DNA from: Syntrophomonadaceae bacterium
Lineage (GTDB): Bacteria; Bacillota; Syntrophomonadia; Syntrophomonadales; Syntrophothermaceae
DNA length: 53,054 bases
Assembly: GCA_012719535.1 (NCBI GenBank)
Contig: JAAYAC010000086.1
Location: 1 to 53,054 of the forward strand
Direction: 5' to 3'
In this document: piece after piece, positions 1,238-9,983 of the stretch
Layout: every line of letters begins with the position of its first letter
Numbering within the stretch: position 1 is the first letter of the stretch
Made by a program: the position numbers and the translations under genes
Notes under the pieces: generated by a model
Database searches by the model: none
What the model was told of the DNA's origin: nothing
Seen by the model: the letters and a program-made list of their open reading frames with translations, nothing else

Positions 1238-3316
1238 ATGAAGATTCGTGATTTGATGACGGTCAATCCCGCGGTTATTAGCCTGGAACAAACAGTCGCT
1301 GATGTTGCCCGGTTATTTTTGGAAAACGAGATCGACGGGGCACCGGTGCTTAACGAAAAGGGTGAGTTGGTGGGGCTAATAACCAAGACCCATCTGATGC
1401 AGGTCATCGCCCGCGGCCTGCCGGCCGATACCCCGGCACGAACATTGATGACTACCGAAGTGGAAACTGTGGACCCGGACGATAACGTTTGGGAGTTTCA
1501 AAAGCGCCGGCGGGGTCGTTTGCCGGTGACCATAGACGACAAACTGGTAGGCATGTTTACCCGTTCCGATTTGATGACCGCGTTTTTTGCCATGATGGAA
1601 AAAACCGGGAAGGAACTGGAAGCAACTATTGACTGTATGTATAACCCCGTGGTATCAATAGATACCAGCGGAAACATTCAAGTGTTTAACAAGGCCGCGG
1701 AGAAACTTCTGGGGCTAAGAGCGGACGAAGTCCGTGGACGCAACATCAAAGACCTGGTTTACAACACCAAATTGATTGAGGTTATGGAAACCGGGCAAAC
1801 CCAGTCAACACAAAAGATCGTCATCGGGGATAAGACGTTTCTATCCAACCGTACCCCAGTTGTTAAAGAAGGACGGATAGTAGGGGCAGTTGCCGTGTTG
1901 CAGGAAATTTCGGAGCTAGAAGAGGTATCTAAGGAACTGGCCTACACCAAACGCCTCAACCAAGAGCTGGACGCCATCATCGAGTCTTCTTTCGACGGGT
2001 TGTATGTGACGGACGGTGAAGGTAATACCTTGCGCGTGAACAAAGCTACCGAGCGCATAACCGGGGTACCTACCGGGGAAGTCATCGGCCGCAATATGAG
2101 GGAGCTGGTTGAGGAAGGGGTTTATTCACGTTCTGGTACCCTGCTGGCGCTGGAAAAACAAGAAAGGGTTACAACCACGCTGGAAACAAGAACCGGGCAG
2201 ACGGTGCTGGTGACCAGCAACCCCATCTACGACGATGAGGGCAATATTTTTCGCGTGGTTACCAACGTGCGTGACGTTACTGAGCTAAATGAACTCAAGC
2301 AGAAACTGGAGCAGATAAGCCAGCTTTACCAAACGGAGTTGCAGCAATTGCGACTCCAGAATTCCCAACGCCTGGTCGTAAACTCACCCAAGATGAAAGA
2401 ATTGCTCAACCTTGTTACCCGGCTGGCGGGGGTAGATTCCACAGTGCTGATTCAGGGTGAGTCCGGGGTAGGCAAGGAATTAATAGCGGAGATAATTCAC
2501 ACCCATAGCAGCCGGAAGGATGGCCCCCTCATCAAGATCAATTGCGGGGCCATTCCTGAGAATCTACTGGAATCGGAGCTTTTCGGCTATGAACCGGGAG
2601 CATTTACCGGAGCCAGCAAACAGGGTAAAGCAGGTCTTTTTGAGCTTGCCAACGGGGGTACCCTGTTTCTGGACGAAGTCGGGGAAATGCCCCTAAACTT
2701 GCAGGTCAAGCTGCTCCGGGTTCTGCAGGACAGGAAAATAACCCGGGTAGGGGGAATTAAGTCGCACAAGGTTAATGTTCGGGTGCTGGCAGGAACTAAC
2801 CGTAACCTGGTCGATATGATCGGCAAGAAACAGTTCCGTGAAGACTTGTATTATCGGTTGAACGTAGTACCGGTACATGTGCCTCCCTTACGTGAGCGTA
2901 AAGAAGATATTCTGCCGCTGGTCCAGCATTTCTTGCAGGGGTTTAATAAAAAGTATCGCATGACTAAACGCATGGCGGCGGACGCAATAGAACGCCTGAT
3001 AGAATACGACTGGCCGGGTAACGTCAGGGAGTTGGAGAACCTTATCGAGCGGTTGGTAGTTATCACGGTTGGTGATGTTATCACGTCGGACGACTTGCCT
3101 GCCTGGGCGCAAGGGAACTTGCAGGGAGCAAATCCGGAATCTGAGATCATCCCGTTACGCCGGGCGGTGGAGAACGCCGAACGCAAACTGCTGCAAAAGG
3201 CTTTCGCCCGCTATGATTCTACCTATCAGGTTGCCCGGGTATTGGGAGTAAACCAGTCTACCGTTTTCCGCAAAGCTGTTAAATACGGGCTCAAACAACG
3301 TGAACGTACCACCTGA
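1238..3316 (+). CDS. Sigma-54-dependent transcriptional activator with CBS pair and two PAS domains
   Basis: A 692-residue enhancer-binding protein that activates RNA polymerase carrying sigma-54. Order of domains: a tandem CBS pair (about 1-115, MKIRDLM start), PAS 1 (about 125-235), PAS 2 (about 245-365), AAA+ domain (about 385-625) and a C-terminal TyrR/Fis-type helix-turn-helix (about 650-690). The AAA+ part has Walker A GESGVGKE at 407-414, an intact sigma-54 contact loop GAFTGA at 454-459 and the Walker B stretch [16 protein letters not shown] pairs usually bind adenine nucleotides or derivatives; PAS domains bind small ligands or redox cofactors. ATG 1238 follows AAGGTGG; an upstream GTG at 1193 has no good ribosome site. 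It converges on the butyrate operon, whose promoter region carries a sigma-54 site and three palindromes; I infer that operon is its target. Confidence 0.9.
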
Positions 3317-3417: not shown

Positions 3418-4563
3418 TTATCTCAATCCCTTGAGCAGGTTATTAGCTACCACTATTCGCTGCACCTGGCTGGTTCCTTCATAGATCTGCAGTATCTTGG
3501 CATCACGCATATACTTCTCCACCGGGTATTCCTTGGTATACCCGTAACCTCCGTATACCTGAACCATGTCAGTAGTTACCCTCATCGCCATATCGCCGCA
3601 CCAACCTTTGGCTATCGAAGCCGCCTGGGAGAAAGGCTTTCCTGCCATCTTGAGCCAGCAGGCCTTGTGATAGAGCAACCGCCCGGCTTCAATGTCCATC
3701 AAGGCATCAGCCAGTAAAAATTGGATGGCCTGAAAAGAGGCGATCGGCTTACCAAATTGGACTCTCATTTTGGCATATTCTACTGCATGGTCAAAGGCTC
3801 CCTGGGCCGTTCCCACAGCCAGTGCCGCGATCATGGGCCTGGACAGGTCTAGCGTCTTCATGCAAGTCATCCAACCTGTCCCTTCGGCGCCCAGGCGGTT
3901 CTCTTCCGGTACGAACACGTTGTCGAATACTACCTCCGTGGTGTTGGAGGTTCTGATACCCATTTTGTTTTCTTTCTTACCAGTGGAGATGCCCTCACTA
4001 TTTCTATCTACCATGAATGCACATATTCCTTTGTATCCCATCTTCTTGTCGAGCGTGGCAAAAACCGTATACTGCCCGGCTACCCCACCGTTGGTGATGA
4101 AACACTTGGTCCCGTTCAGGATATAGCCACCGTCCACTTTTTTGCAGTTGGTGGACATACCCCCCACATCCGAGCCAGCTCCCGGTTCAGTCAGGCAAAA
4201 GGCCGCTACCTTGCCGTCAAGCAATCCTTTCCACCAGCGCTCGGCCTGTTCTTGGTTGGCTGCTACCACAACCGGCTCGGAGGCCAGCAGGCAACTTGCG
4301 ACAACCACCGTGGCCAGGCCCAGATCCCCGCGAGCCAGTTCTTCAACTGCCAGGGCTTGCCCCAGATAATCGATACCGGGCCCGCCAAATTCCTCCGGTA
4401 CACCGACCGTCATCAAGCCGGTTTCCTGCATCTTGGCCACCAGGTGCTCGGGATAGATATCCTTTTCGTCGTATTCGCCTACTACCGGCCACAGTTCATT
4501 TTCGGCAAACTTTCTGGCCATATCTTTAATCATTAGCTGCTCATCGGTATAGTTAAAATCCAC
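3418..4563 (-). CDS. Short-chain acyl-CoA dehydrogenase (probable butyryl-CoA dehydrogenase)
   Basis: FAD enzyme that oxidises butyryl-CoA to crotonyl-CoA, passing electrons to electron-transfer flavoprotein. The 381-residue length is typical. Visible are the FAD/substrate signature LTEPGAGSDVGGM, a C-terminal GGYGYTKEYPVEKYMRDAK block and the catalytic glutamate (Glu362) in QIYEGTSQ, the position found in short/medium-chain enzymes. The GTG start at 4563 follows AAAGGAGG. It is the last gene of a four-gene minus-strand operon; no etfAB genes lie nearby, so its electron acceptor is encoded elsewhere. Butyryl-CoA is inferred from the neighbours; slightly longer acyl chains are possible. Confidence 0.9.
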   Translation of the reverse strand: MDFNYTDEQLMIKDMARKFAENELWPVVGEYDEKDIYPEHLVAKMQETGLMTVGVPEEFGGPGIDYLGQALAVEELARGDLGLATVVVASCLLASEPVVVAANQEQAERWWKGLLDGKVAAFCLTEPGAGSDVGGMSTNCKKVDGGYILNGTKCFITNGGVAGQYTVFATLDKKMGYKGICAFMVDRNSEGISTGKKENKMGIRTSNTTEVVFDNVFVPEENRLGAEGTGWMTCMKTLDLSRPMIAALAVGTAQGAFDHAVEYAKMRVQFGKPIASFQAIQFLLADALMDIEAGRLLYHKACWLKMAGKPFSQAASIAKGWCGDMAMRVTTDMVQVYGGYGYTKEYPVEKYMRDAKILQIYEGTSQVQRIVVANNLLKGLR

Positions 4564-4704: not shown

Positions 4705-6048
4705 CTAGGCTCTGAGTTTATTGGTTGCCTTCCATATGTTCATTTTCCGGGCTTCTTCCACCAGTTCGTCCCGGAATTTAGGATGGGCAATATTGATAAG
4801 GGCTTCTGCCCGTTCCCAGTTGGATAAGCCCTTGAGCATGGCTTTGCCGTATTCCGTTATCACGTAGAAGGTTGCGCTCCGGGGGCAGGTGACTATGGTA
4901 CCCGGGGTCAGGGTGGGCCTGATGCGTGATTGCAGGTTACCGTCTTTATCCGTATAGGTGGAAGTCAGGCAGATAAATCCTTTGCCTCCCTGGGAACGGA
5001 ATGCCCCGTAAATGAAATCGAACTGGCCTCCCGTACCGGAGATATGGCGAGTACCGGAGGATTCAGAGGCCACCTGGCCGTAGAGGTCTACCTCAAGGGC
5101 ATTATTGATGGCTACCACTTTATCGTTTTGCGCCACGATAAAAGGATTATTGGTGTAGTCCACCGGGTATGATGCCAGCATGGGGTTTTTGTCCAGAAAT
5201 TCATAGAGCTTGGAGGTGCCCATTGCAAAAGTGTATACCATTTTACCGCGATCCACGGTCTTGCGGGCATTGGTAATACGTCCCGACTCGTACATGTCTA
5301 CGTAGGAATCGGCCAGCATCTCGGTGTGAACGCCCAGGTCTTTTAAATCTGATTCGGCAATCATTTTGCCCACTGCGTTGGGCATTCCCCCGATACCCAG
5401 CTGCAGGCAAGCACCGTCTTCGATTTCTTCCATTACCAGGCCGGCGATCACCTTATCCGTTTCTGTGATTACCGGGTTAGGTACCTGGGGCAGCGGCTTG
5501 CTTATTCCCTCGACAATGTAATCGACTTGCGAAATATGAATGGACTCGTGGCTACCCCCCAGGCACACCGGCATTTGTTCGTTTACCTCCACGATAACGG
5601 TCTTGGCTCGGTCGCACTGGGCCTTTTGAAAGGAGTTGGAGGGGCCGAAATTGAAGAAACCGTGTTTGTCCATCGGAGCTACTTGCATAATGGCCACGTC
5701 AGATTCCAGGTACCTTTGGTAGTACTGGGGAACCTCGCAGTAGAATATGGGGACATAGGTGCACAGGCCTTCGTCATGGAGCTTTCTTTCTGCACCGCTC
5801 ATATGCCAGCTGTTGTAGATGAAATGAGTTCCTTCCGGGTCTACTGTGCACACTTTAGGGCGAAAAAGGGTGGTTACCGCCCGGATCTTTACCCCGAAAA
5901 GCTCGTCCTTGCGACGGGCAAGAGCCTCGTCCATAACCGGGGGAGCGCAGGCAAAATGGCTATATTCCACCCAGTCTCCGGACTTGACAACCTTAGCTGC
6001 TTCTTCGGCGGGGACTAGTTTGCGTTGGTATTCCTCTGTAAATGACAC
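4705..6048 (-). CDS. Butyryl-CoA:acetate CoA-transferase (acetyl-CoA hydrolase/transferase family)
   Basis: Transfers CoA between acetyl-CoA and butyrate, activating butyrate without direct ATP use. The 447-residue protein carries the family blocks GIGGMPNAVG, ADSYVDMYESGRITNARK with VYTFAMGTSKLYEFLD, and SGTGGQFDFIYGA, which fit the butyryl-CoA:acetate group better than the 4-hydroxybutyrate group, though the two are close relatives. GTG start at 6048 behind GAGGAGG. It sits between thiolase and acyl-CoA dehydrogenase genes, so it supplies or releases the operon's CoA esters. An intercistronic hairpin precedes it. Exact acyl preference cannot be read from sequence. Confidence 0.85.
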   Translation of the reverse strand: MSFTEEYQRKLVPAEEAAKVVKSGDWVEYSHFACAPPVMDEALARRKDELFGVKIRAVTTLFRPKVCTVDPEGTHFIYNSWHMSGAERKLHDEGLCTYVPIFYCEVPQYYQRYLESDVAIMQVAPMDKHGFFNFGPSNSFQKAQCDRAKTVIVEVNEQMPVCLGGSHESIHISQVDYIVEGISKPLPQVPNPVITETDKVIAGLVMEEIEDGACLQLGIGGMPNAVGKMIAESDLKDLGVHTEMLADSYVDMYESGRITNARKTVDRGKMVYTFAMGTSKLYEFLDKNPMLASYPVDYTNNPFIVAQNDKVVAINNALEVDLYGQVASESSGTRHISGTGGQFDFIYGAFRSQGGKGFICLTSTYTDKDGNLQSRIRPTLTPGTIVTCPRSATFYVITEYGKAMLKGLSNWERAEALINIAHPKFRDELVEEARKMNIWKATNKLRA

Positions 6049-6173: not shown

Positions 6174-7376
6174 CTAAATGTCCCGGGAGATAATCGTAGC
6201 CATGGCCGGGCCGCCTCCGACACAAAGAGAAGCTCCCCCAACGGTGGCTCCCATTCTTTGTAGTTCGTACAGGCAGGCAATAATGATGCGCAGGCCCGTC
6301 ATGCCGATGGGATGTCCAATGGAAATACCGGAACCGTTGTGGTTGACTTTATCCATATCGATAACCCAGCCTTGTTCTTCTTTCAACATCCGTCCTACCC
6401 CCAGCCATTGGGCGGCAAAAGCTTCGTTGATTTCCCAGTACTCAATATCATCAAAGGTAAGACCGGCAAATTTGAGGGCCTTGGGCATCGCTCGGGCGGG
6501 ACCTAATCCCATGACTTCGGCAGGAACCCCGGCCGTAGCCGTGGAGAGAACCTTAGCTAGCGGCTTAATGCCAAGTTCATCGGCTTTTTCACGAGCCATG
6601 ACGATGGCGGCACACCCGCCGTCGTTGATTCCGGAAGCGTTACCTGCGGTTACCGTACCGCCTTTCTTGAAAGCCGGAGCCAGCTTGGCCAGCGATTCCA
6701 GGGTAGTTTCGGGTTTCCCGTGTTCATCCCTGTCGAACCAGGTGACCCCTTTCTTGGTTTTTATCTCAAAGGGAATTATTTCACCGTCGGCGAACTTATT
6801 GGCGGCTTGGGCGGCAGCGAGACGCTGCTGGCTCAGCAAGGCCAGTTCGTCCTGCTCCTGGCGCGAAATTCCATATTTCTCAGCAACGTTTTCAGCGGTT
6901 ATTCCCATGTGATACCCGCAAATAGTGCAGATAAGGCCGTCATACAACATGGCATCCTCCAGCTTGCCGGGTCCGAGCCGGTAGCCGGTACGTCCTTTGT
7001 GGACCAGGTACGGGGCCCCGCTCATGCTTTCCACCCCGCACACTAGAGCTATATCTGTATGCCCGCTCATTATGTTTTGACAGGCAATTTCGAAGGCTCT
7101 CATGGAAGAAGAGCAGAGCTGGTTGACGGTAACAGCCCCCGCCTTGGGGTCGATACCAAGGCCGTAACTTATCTGGCGGGCTATGTTCCCCCCTAATCCG
7201 GCCTGAATAACGCAACCGGCGACTACTTCGTCGATCATGTCCGGGGTAATGCCGGCTCGCTGGATGCATTCCTTACCAGTGGCAATGGCAAACTCCTTGG
7301 GATGAAAGCTGCTCAGGGAGCCCAGCATGGTGCCAACGGCTGTTCGGCAGGCGCTCACAATAACTGCTTCTCTCAT
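6174..7376 (-). CDS. Acetyl-CoA C-acetyltransferase (thiolase)
   Basis: Cleaves acetoacetyl-CoA with CoA to two acetyl-CoA, or condenses them in reverse. The 400-residue length is normal. The three catalytic elements are present: nucleophile Cys88 in NQLCSSSM, His355 in GISIGHPIGMTG and the C-terminal Cys385 in SLCVGGGPAM. The ATG start at 7376 follows AAGGAGG. It is the second gene of the minus-strand operon, 45 bases after hbd, consistent with the last carbon-chain step of butyrate oxidation. Confidence 0.95.
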   Translation of the reverse strand: MREAVIVSACRTAVGTMLGSLSSFHPKEFAIATGKECIQRAGITPDMIDEVVAGCVIQAGLGGNIARQISYGLGIDPKAGAVTVNQLCSSSMRAFEIACQNIMSGHTDIALVCGVESMSGAPYLVHKGRTGYRLGPGKLEDAMLYDGLICTICGYHMGITAENVAEKYGISRQEQDELALLSQQRLAAAQAANKFADGEIIPFEIKTKKGVTWFDRDEHGKPETTLESLAKLAPAFKKGGTVTAGNASGINDGGCAAIVMAREKADELGIKPLAKVLSTATAGVPAEVMGLGPARAMPKALKFAGLTFDDIEYWEINEAFAAQWLGVGRMLKEEQGWVIDMDKVNHNGSGISIGHPIGMTGLRIIIACLYELQRMGATVGGASLCVGGGPAMATIISRDI

Positions 7377-7421: not shown

Positions 7422-8270
7422 TCAGTACTTGAAAAACCCTTCCCCGGTCTTGCGGCCCAGCTTGCCGGCGCGAACCATCTTGATCAGAAGGGGACAAGGA
7501 CGGTACTTGTCGTCGCCGAATTCCCGGTGCAGTGTTTCCATAACAGCCAGGACGATATCGAGACCGATCATGTCCGCCAGGGCCAGGGGGCCCATCGGGT
7601 GGCCCGCACCGAGTTTCATGGAAGTGTCAATGTCGGAGGCGTTGGCAACCCCCTCCATGAGGGCATACATCCCTTCGTTTAACATGGGTACCAGCAAGCG
7701 ATTAACCACAAAGCCGGGAGCCTCATTAATTTCCACCGGGGTTTTACCCAGGTTGCTCGTGAGGTTCTTTATAATATCGAAGGTTTCCTGGCTGGTGGAG
7801 GCTCCTTTGATTATCTCAACCAGTTTCATGGCCGGAACCGGGTTGAAAAAGTGCATGCCAATAACCTTATCTGCCCTGCCGGTGGCAGCACCGATTTCCG
7901 TGATACTCAGGGCGGAGGTGTTGGAAGCCAGTATGCATTCCGGCTTGCAGGTCTCGTCCAACTCTTTGAAAATCGCCTTCTTTATGTCCATTACTTCTAT
8001 TGCAGCTTCTATTACTACATCGCAGTCTTTAGCTGCTGCCATGTCGACCGTCCCGCTGATGCGTCCCATAATGACATTCTTGTCGTCAGCGGATAACTTC
8101 CCTTTTTCGGCCATCTTGGCGAGGTTCTTCTCAATACCTTTGATCGCCTTGTCCACAAACTCTTGCTTGATGTCGCGGACAACCACGTCGAAACCGGCCT
8201 GGGCAGCAACCTGAACAATGCCTGCGCCCATGGTACCAGCTCCGAGTACCATGATTTTCTTGATGTCCAT
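7422..8270 (-). CDS. hbd: 3-hydroxybutyryl-CoA dehydrogenase
   Basis: NAD(P)-linked oxidation of 3-hydroxybutyryl-CoA to acetoacetyl-CoA. The 282-residue protein starts [17 protein letters not shown]; GxGxxG at residues 10-15 is the nucleotide-binding turn, followed by the acidic residue of VVRD. The central [14 protein letters not shown] block and the C-terminal [11 protein letters not shown] are typical. ATG 8270 follows AGGAGG. It is the first gene of the operon, about 190 bases after the predicted sigma-54 transcription start. No crotonase gene lies in this operon, so the hydration step must be encoded elsewhere. Confidence 0.95.
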
Positions 8271-8470: not shown

Positions 8471-8487
8471 GTGCAATAACCATGCCA
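8471..8487 (-). promoter_or_regulatory. Sigma-54 (-24/-12) promoter of the butyrate operon
   Basis: On the minus strand the sequence reads TGGCATG-GTTA-TTGCA, matching the sigma-54 consensus TGGCACG-N4-TTGCW with one change. The invariant GG (8486-8485) and GC (8474-8473) have the required 10 bases between them. Predicted start of transcription is near 8461, giving a leader of about 190 bases before hbd. A gene for a GAFTGA-containing activator lies in the same locus. Confidence 0.8.
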
Positions 8488-8590
8488 GGCGGTGGACCTT
8501 GCTGGAATTGATGACGGCAGGAAGCCCGGCTTCTCTGGGGAGAAGGCCGGTTAGGTTGCACGCCGGTTTATGTGGGCAAGCTGTCCGGGT

Positions 8591-8608
8591 TAATGCAGCC
8601 AAGCATTA
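8591..8608. promoter_or_regulatory. Palindrome 1, TAATGC-N6-GCATTA (candidate upstream activator site)
   Basis: Perfect 6-base arms with a 6-base spacer (AGCCAA). Its centre is about 139 bases upstream of the predicted sigma-54 start, the usual distance for enhancer-binding protein sites. The 18-base layout equals that of TyrR boxes, and the nearby activator ends in a TyrR-like helix-turn-helix. Confidence 0.7.
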
Positions 8609-8613
8609 GATGG

Positions 8614-8631
8614 TAATGCACTAGAGCATTA
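8614..8631. promoter_or_regulatory. Palindrome 2, TAATGC-N6-GCATTA (candidate upstream activator site)
   Basis: Same arms as palindrome 1 with spacer ACTAGA. Centre-to-centre distance to palindrome 1 is 23 bases, so two dimers could sit side by side, about 162 bases upstream of the predicted start. Confidence 0.7.
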
Positions 8632-8697
8632 CAACGGAGGGGTGGGTGGTGGCGAGCCATGAGATGGCCGGCACCGGGATTATAAGAAGTGACAAAG

Positions 8698-8715
8698 TAA
8701 TGCACATATGCATTA
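8698..8715. promoter_or_regulatory. Palindrome 3, TAATGC-N6-GCATTA (candidate upstream activator site)
   Basis: Same arms with spacer ACATAT. It lies 84 bases (about eight helical turns) from palindrome 2 and overlaps the last codon of ylbJ by three bases. The three copies together make chance very unlikely. Confidence 0.68.
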
Positions 8716-9912
8716 ACAGCGCAACTTTGCCAGTACTACCGCAGTTAGTGCCAGTAGCATGACCCCGGAGAGGCTTACCAGCAAGGGAACAATGCACAGA
8801 CCAACTGTGGAAAAGGGAGCGGCATGAGGCACAATCGCAGCGTGGCCGTATAGGGAAATGGTGTCGGCCAGGTACCGGTGCAGGAAAAACCTGTACCCGA
8901 GTATGGTGTACAGCGCAGCAAGTAGCATCTGCACCGAACGAGATAAGACATAGAAGGAAAGTCGAACCGGAATCTCCGCGACAATACTCATTACCTGAGC
9001 AATAATCGATAAACCGCTCCAGGCCAGAACCACGCTGGTGGCCACCAACTGGTAATGGAGGGATGCCTCCGAGGCGGCTATGGTTCTGGCCCCAAGGGTC
9101 ATCTCCAAGAAACCGGTACTGAGGCCACACGCCAGGGAGTGGGACATGCCAGGAATGAGGCGGGCTTGCTGAATGGTATGGGCCATAAGGTCGATGACAC
9201 CCCAGGTGCGAAGCATTTGGGTGATTACTGAGAAGACTATGATAAAGCCTCCCACGGTCAGGATGTTGTTTACGCTGTTACGAATCGATTCCCCCAGCAT
9301 TCCGCCTATACCGCGGCAGTTCTGGCGGTTTACCTCCAACAGCCGGGCGACAGCCGCTTTCAGCGGATTAACATTACAGGTAGCGGAGACGGAGGCGTAC
9401 CGGAGGGGAGCAAGTCGCCCCGCCAGAAAGCCTACGGACAGGTTAGCCAGGTAATGAGCACAGGCCAACAGGTAACCCGCGGAGGGCAGGGCAAACATGC
9501 CTACGGCCACGGCTCCCAGTATGAAAAGGGGGCTGGCGTTGTTAGTGAATGATACCAGCCTTTCCGCTTCATTCTCGTCCAACAGCTTTTCTGAGTAGAG
9601 CTTGCGGGTTAGGATCGCCCCGATCGGGAATCCGGAAGTATACCCCATTACCACTACGAATGCGCTAACCCCTGGCAGGCGAAAGAGAGGGCGCATAACC
9701 GGTTCGAGAAGAATTCCCAGGAAATGCACCAAACCAAGCTGTACCAGCATTTCTGATACAACAAAAAAGGGCAGGAGGGCGGGCAGGACCACGCGAAACC
9801 AGAGGTCTAACCCATCCAGGGAAGCCTTGCTCGCCAGGCCCGGGTTGATAATCATAAAACCGGTTAAAAATAAGACAAACACCAGAAACAGGCAACCGGT
9901 GTTCTTTTTCAT
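8713..9912 (-). CDS. ylbJ: Sporulation integral membrane protein YlbJ
   Basis: A 399-residue polytopic membrane protein of the YlbJ family, needed for spore cortex formation in Bacillus; the biochemical role is unknown. At least eight hydrophobic segments are visible, with Gate-domain-like MGYTSGFPIGAIL and NNASPLFILGAVAVGMF blocks. The frame is open to 9954, but ATG 9912 (MKKNTGCLFLVF) follows CAGGAGTG and gives a normal membrane-protein start. It is transcribed away from the patatin-like gene, and its 3' end touches the third operator palindrome. Confidence 0.88.
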   Translation of the reverse strand: MKKNTGCLFLVFVLFLTGFMIINPGLASKASLDGLDLWFRVVLPALLPFFVVSEMLVQLGLVHFLGILLEPVMRPLFRLPGVSAFVVVMGYTSGFPIGAILTRKLYSEKLLDENEAERLVSFTNNASPLFILGAVAVGMFALPSAGYLLACAHYLANLSVGFLAGRLAPLRYASVSATCNVNPLKAAVARLLEVNRQNCRGIGGMLGESIRNSVNNILTVGGFIIVFSVITQMLRTWGVIDLMAHTIQQARLIPGMSHSLACGLSTGFLEMTLGARTIAASEASLHYQLVATSVVLAWSGLSIIAQVMSIVAEIPVRLSFYVLSRSVQMLLAALYTILGYRFFLHRYLADTISLYGHAAIVPHAAPFSTVGLCIVPLLVSLSGVMLLALTAVVLAKLRC

Positions 9913-9940
9913 TCGGTTACACTCCTGTACAGGAACGGAT

Positions 9941-9983
9941 ATTGCAGGCCGCAAAAGAGAGGGGGCTCTTTAAATTGCAGGCC
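9941..9983. promoter_or_regulatory. Repeat-flanked palindrome in the ylbJ/patatin divergent intergenic region
   Basis: Direct repeats ATTGCAGGCC at 9941-9950 and 9974-9983 (33 bases apart) flank the palindrome AAAGAG-N6-CTCTTT (9954-9971). The whole divergent spacer is only about 110 bases, so this could control one or both genes. No regulator can be named. Confidence 0.4.

Follow-up and report, generated by a model that had tools for sequence, protein, structure and literature searches.

Control of butyrate-type operons by sigma-54 is already known from Clostridiales, for which comparative genomics predicted that enhancer-binding proteins (EBPs) of the PAS type act on such operons through multiple upstream activating sequences (UASs), and binding of sigma-54 was verified in vitro (Nie et al., 2019, PMC6615313). 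According to its main text this study comprises 15 groups with TGT-N10-12-ACA motifs and the regulators CrbR, AdhR, BldR, PrdR and others, and the same text, motif figure and supplement aside, mentions neither TAATGC nor syntrophs. Work on Desulfovibrio found that similarity of the motifs does not always follow similarity of the DNA-binding domains (PMC4641369). The TyrR box is TGTAAA-N6-TTTACA, in which the G of arm position 2 is essential and belongs to a G-N14-C pair (PMC4374768), and in crystals of Fis with DNA Arg85 contacts base pair +/-7 and Thr75 is at +/-8 (PMC4784862). A literature search on sigma-54 control in Syntrophomonas gave nothing relevant.

The locus described here, part of a stretch of 53,054 nucleotides that was analysed as a whole (the window), would tie a sigma-54 activator to a beta-oxidation operon in apparent syntrophic degraders of fatty acids, a group in which few studies have dealt with gene regulation. 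The more novel part is a residue-level rule that relates the DNA-binding domain of the activator to its sites.

Sites, promoter and target operon

The three copies of TAATGC-N6-GCATTA reported in the preliminary description have perfect arms and differing spacers (Table 1), and no further match at up to two mismatches exists in the whole window. Base composition predicts about 0.11 exact copies per genome, whereas the 2.49-Mb genome holds four, one of them outside the window; copies with one mismatch number zero, and those with two mismatches amount to 59 versus 41 for the reversed control pattern. The fourth exact copy (C143:1055) is consistent with chance, and it was rejected as a UAS as it lies inside a glucose-1-phosphate thymidylyltransferase-like (rfbA-like) coding frame.

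Table 1. Positions of the putative regulatory sites and of the genes around them in the window.
Feature	Position	Strand	Remark
Enhancer-binding protein, predicted UAS-binding activator	1238..3316	+	Pfam; relatives
HTH_50 DNA-binding domain	3155..3292	+	Tyr663 and Gln673 are the proposed specificity residues
Acyl-CoA dehydrogenase (acd)	3418..4563	-	
Butyryl-CoA:acetate CoA-transferase-like	4705..6048	-	TIGR03948, just below cutoff
Acetyl-CoA acyltransferase (thiolase, thl)	6174..7376	-	
3-Hydroxybutyryl-CoA dehydrogenase (hbd)	7422..8270	-	First gene of the operon
Sigma-54 promoter	8473..8487	-	TGGCATGGTTATTGC; near-consensus; -24 GG, -12 GC
Putative UAS 1 (promoter-proximal)	8591..8608	.	TAATGC-AGCCAA-GCATTA, exact match
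Putative UAS 2	8614..8631	.	TAATGC-ACTAGA-GCATTA, exact match; 23 bp from UAS 1
Putative UAS 3 (distal)	8698..8715	.	TAATGC-ACATAT-GCATTA, exact match; includes ylbJ stop codon
ylbJ, upstream neighbour outside the system	8713..9954	-	Not beside the sites in relatives

The promoter element (8487-8473) faces the hbd-thl-CoA-transferase-acd operon, a gene set that fits butyrate-type beta-oxidation, in which the operon presumably functions. The centres of UAS 1, 2 and 3 are located 112, 135 and 219 bp upstream of the first base of the -24 element, which agrees with the earlier statement that the distances are normal for enhancer-binding proteins (about 80-250 bp), and relatives are similar. If the start of transcription is placed 12 nt after the -12 GC, the centres come to lie 138.5, 161.5 and 245.5 bp upstream of it, practically the 139, 162 and 246 bases estimated before. 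The locus thus combines repeated sites at a suitable distance, a -24/-12 promoter downstream of them, an AAA+ activator with the GAFTGA motif encoded nearby and a sigma-54 gene in the same genome, as expected of a sigma-54 enhancer.

As already described, the distal palindrome overlaps the end of ylbJ, with the stop codon (8713-8715) inside it. This position would also suit RNA hairpins at the 3' end of the ylbJ transcript, acting as a terminator or stability element, and the minus-strand RNA of 8575-8735 indeed folds better than its shuffles (z -4.08). However, any set of palindromes would do so, and the value results from the palindromes and the GC-rich stem between them. No terminator is predicted at 8575-8735, the AT-rich arms do not change between genera, in contrast to the variable spacers, and in relatives it is the sigma-54 promoter and not ylbJ that adjoins the sites, so that a role as hairpins is extremely unlikely.

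Conservation in related genomes

We searched for the motif in 61 genomes drawn from the family or order to which the window belongs, its own genome included; a search at class level added almost no taxa (63 genomes in the class). The 61 genomes contain 36 exact copies of TAATGC-N6-GCATTA compared with 3 for the reversed pattern, and 29 of the 36, from 21 genomes, have a sigma-54 promoter no more than 400 bp downstream. In 20 of these 21 genomes a gene for thiolase, HBD or CoA-transferase is present near the sites, the remaining one being cut by a contig end, and on contigs of sufficient length the orthologous activator is usually encoded at the far side of the operon. Spacers and flanks of the sites vary among the relatives while arms and promoter stay constant, the promoter element being near-identical (TGGCATGTTTATTGC). 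The motif, looked for before orthologous operons beside orthologous activators, is therefore present in relatives where the preliminary description would have it. Since it recurs before the sigma-54 promoters of such operons, we assign the three palindromes, on the grounds of sequence comparison, almost certainly to the neighbouring activator.

The arrangement of the sites is conserved in part. Relatives have 24 adjacent pairs with centres 22-23 bp apart (23 bp in the window), and this tandem proximal pair is positioned about 76-123 bp upstream of the promoter, often accompanied by a third, distal site 76-243 bp farther upstream (84 bp in the window). The 84 bp between palindromes 2 and 3 had been read as eight helical turns: the spacing is real, but its phasing is not conserved. 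Because the distal spacing floats in relatives, the eight turns are incidental, and helical phasing was rejected as a rule, as the range of 76-243 bp has no helical periodicity and only the 22-23 bp pair is kept.

Arm sequence and the HTH domain of the activator

The candidate activator has the architecture CBS-CBS-PAS-PAS-AAA+(GAFTGA)-HTH_50 according to Pfam, with 42.5 bits for HTH_50 (PF18024) against a gathering score of 27. The best solved relative of this domain is a TyrR homologue (PDB 1g2h, E 0.04), in line with the TyrR-like DNA-binding end that had been proposed for the protein. Assignment as a TyrR equivalog was nevertheless rejected, as NF008085 scores 320.7 bits, less than the cutoff of 576, and the protein carries CBS domains and not the ACT domain known for TyrR; PrdR was rejected as well (NF041552, 529.8 bits, cutoff 795). 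A scan of genome contigs returned relatives that are mainly AAA+-only and few with the HTH type of the activator.

Downstream of a paralogous CBS-EBP of the same genome, and in front of a paralogous CoA-transferase gene, there are three TGATGC-N6-GCATCA palindromes (L006, G000:C55:1951-2058), of which two have a spacing of 20 bp. C55 represents a sister system that uses another code word, and since this paralogue has 6-6-6 boxes of its own, with the arm TGATGC, the arm tracks the activator. TGATGC-N6-GCATCA is also found every 273 bp in two other places (G009:C3:182759-183322 and G050:C151:2062-2352), which look like repetitive and perhaps coding arrays without relation to UASs. Palindromic boxes are generic and a small gene that resembles a regulator (139 aa, by eye similar to MarR) is located near the C55 cluster, hence the palindromes could in principle be operators of another DNA-binding protein sharing the sigma-54 promoter region, such as a repressor that responds to fatty acids. 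Against this, the arm letters covary with the HTH residues of the adjacent activator even within one genome (TAATGC at C69, TGATGC at C55), the sites are at UAS distances upstream of sigma-54 promoters, and exact sites are otherwise absent from the genome except for the one in coding DNA. A different regulator is very unlikely, and we continue with the neighbouring EBP as the probable binding partner.

About 160 loci were fetched, most of them with related activators, and about 100 related activators were compared. Upstream of their sigma-54 promoters all 4096 six-base arms at gap 6 were searched de novo, with no motif assumed and with 15 shuffles per activator set as control. For activators with Tyr in the second helix and Gln at the start of the recognition helix the top arm was TAATGC (22/33; shuffles at most 5), for Arg/Gln it was TGATGC (10/25; shuffles at most 3), for Arg/Ala TGTTGC (28/37; shuffles at most 3) and for Arg with Gln-Pro-Thr TGATAC (5/9; shuffles at most 3). 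Gap 6 was the best among gaps 5-7. No arm rose above the shuffles for Tyr+QPT activators, Arg+DPST activators had no consistent arm, and with the promoter pattern applied about half of all EBPs lacked a core site. The two Tyr+Ala loci are divided, as L194 has a perfect TATTGC palindrome together with TTTTGC-like sites and L323 has neither. There are hints of TGGAAC/TGGTAC and TGGTGC arms for His-type activators and of a TTTTGC arm for activators without Tyr/Arg.

Some further observations concern other activator types. TTTTGC-N6-GCAAAA, possibly the code word (T,T), occurs upstream of sigma-54 promoters at L328, L336 and L338, whose activators have no Tyr/Arg and are of the xPST, xPAT or xAST type. 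Two paralogous activators of the DVST and DAST types are encoded in tandem at L149, L156 and L157, and DVST-type activators (3/3 loci) go together with TGTTTC as well as TGTTGC, suggesting another code word. In Desulfobacterales (L075, L086 and L101) the genes of NtrC-like activators are directly preceded by a sigma-54 promoter, and upstream of it the palindrome TGCACA-N6-TGTGCA is repeated at a spacing of 22 bp, an arrangement that probably serves autoregulation.

The pattern among the related activators can be written as Tyr to A or Arg to G at arm position 2, and Gln to A or Ala to T at position 3. When the HTH columns were scanned blindly against the arm positions at 56 single-activator loci, the top-ranking column was Tyr/Arg for position 2 (z 15.2) and Gln/Ala for position 3 (z 16.8); other HTH columns correlate with the arm letters too, more weakly. 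We fixed the rule in writing first and then collected 40 further loci, where it applied for R to G in 6/7, Y to A in 2/3, Q to A in 4/4 and A to T in 4/5 cases. We regard this as a partial confirmation, and the later loci are not fully independent because some genomes are common to the earlier ones. Taken together, Y goes with A in 22/25, R with G in 38/42, Q with A in 35/38 and A with T in 26/28 cases. The correlation between residue and letter is strong (62 loci for Tyr/Arg, 65 for Gln/Ala), with Fisher p values of about 1e-14 and about 1e-13 on the two-letter tables if kinship is ignored.

On a tree of the AAA+ domain there are 5 independent Tyr/Arg switches, 2 of them on supported branches, and 3 independent Gln/Ala switches, 1 of them on a supported branch; none of the switches on supported branches runs against the rule. 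A phylogenetically controlled test of the code was not significant, with too few independent pairs. The few residue switches and the weaker correlation of other HTH columns would also be compatible with real UASs whose apparent code is shared ancestry, i.e. a few clades fixed one HTH and one motif while other HTH positions decide. On the other hand, the two top columns are exactly the positions expected from the geometry of Fis, and the pattern persists beyond the order, in divergent families. Furthermore, TyrR has Arg at the first code position together with the essential G of its box (PMC4374768). Ancestry as the whole explanation seems rather unlikely to us, and the covariation suggests that two HTH residues of the activator decide which box is recognised.

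This choice of residues makes structural sense. The HTH of the activator aligns without gaps with the TyrR homologue 1g2h and with Fis, which places Tyr663 (codon 3224-3226) at the position of Fis Thr75 and Gln673 (codon 3254-3256) at that of Fis Arg85. In the even-centred palindrome here the residue of the Gln673 type goes with +/-6.5 and that of the Tyr663 type with +/-7.5, and the order of the residues along the DNA, arm positions 3 then 2, is the same as in Fis. TyrR (Arg, His) has G at arm position 2 as the rule predicts; it has T and not G at position 3, and His is thus outside the rule.

A model of activation and its relation to known systems

We propose that the palindromes are the UASs of the convergently encoded CBS-PAS-AAA+-HTH_50 activator. 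Its dimers would bind each box via the TyrR/Fis-type HTH, with one HTH per TAATGC arm, Tyr663 (Fis position 75) selecting A at arm position 2 and Gln673 (Fis position 85) selecting A at arm position 3, presumably by direct contacts. The tandem pair 23 bp apart and the distal box may nucleate the AAA+ ring, looping of the DNA would bring the bound activator to sigma-54 RNA polymerase at the promoter, and ATP hydrolysis would open it. The operon would then be switched on by a signal read through the CBS and PAS domains, possibly adenine nucleotides or acyl-CoA/redox signals. This explanation as a whole, from the three UASs through looping and operon activation to a choice of arms made mainly by two HTH residues, is predicted from sequence and appears highly probable to us.

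A wider reading is somewhat favoured. EBPs of the TyrR/HTH_50 type across Bacillota may use a modular UAS code (Fis position 75: Arg to G, Tyr to A at arm position 2; Fis position 85: Gln to A, Ala to T at position 3; position 86: Ser/Pro with G/A in the core), by which the enhancer becomes predictable from the protein, and large paralogous sets in presumed syntrophic butyrate degraders would avoid cross-talk via different code words. On a question that the literature has left unanswered (Kazakov et al.), the two-residue rule makes a concrete proposal ready for mutagenesis, and if it holds, one could predict UASs together with target operons for many orphan activators.

Compared with TyrR of Enterobacteriaceae, the system shares the HTH_50 family, cooperating neighbouring boxes, Arg with G at arm position 2 and the 6-6-6 palindrome, the layout of two 6-bp inverted arms and a 6-bp gap having been rightly equated with that of TyrR boxes (PMC4374768). 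The arms themselves differ, being TAATGC with A at position 2 in the window and not TGTAAA/TTTACA with the essential G-N14-C, and the core is TGC/GCA whereas that of the TyrR box is AAA/TTT. TyrR has aromatic amino acids as its ligands and works mainly at sigma-70 promoters, in contrast to the CBS-PAS sensors and the sigma-54 promoter here. Fis has a homologous HTH in which Arg85 and Thr75 match the two proposed specificity residues, but it is no activator of sigma-54 promoters, it reads mainly DNA shape and its 15-bp core is degenerate. PrdR, the proline reductase activator, is the best NCBIfam equivalog of the activator (530 bits); the match spans residues 241-683 only, stays below the 795-bit cutoff, and the target operon is different. 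The sigma-54 regulons of Clostridiales, as far as the main text of the study goes (PMC6615313), are compared by coarse motif and domain similarity and have no residue-level rule, but they likewise consist of one-component PAS-type EBPs that adjoin fermentation or butyrate operons with multiple UASs 100-250 bp upstream, and TGTTGC-N6-GCAACA of the Arg/Ala paralogues fits their TGT-N12-ACA motif.
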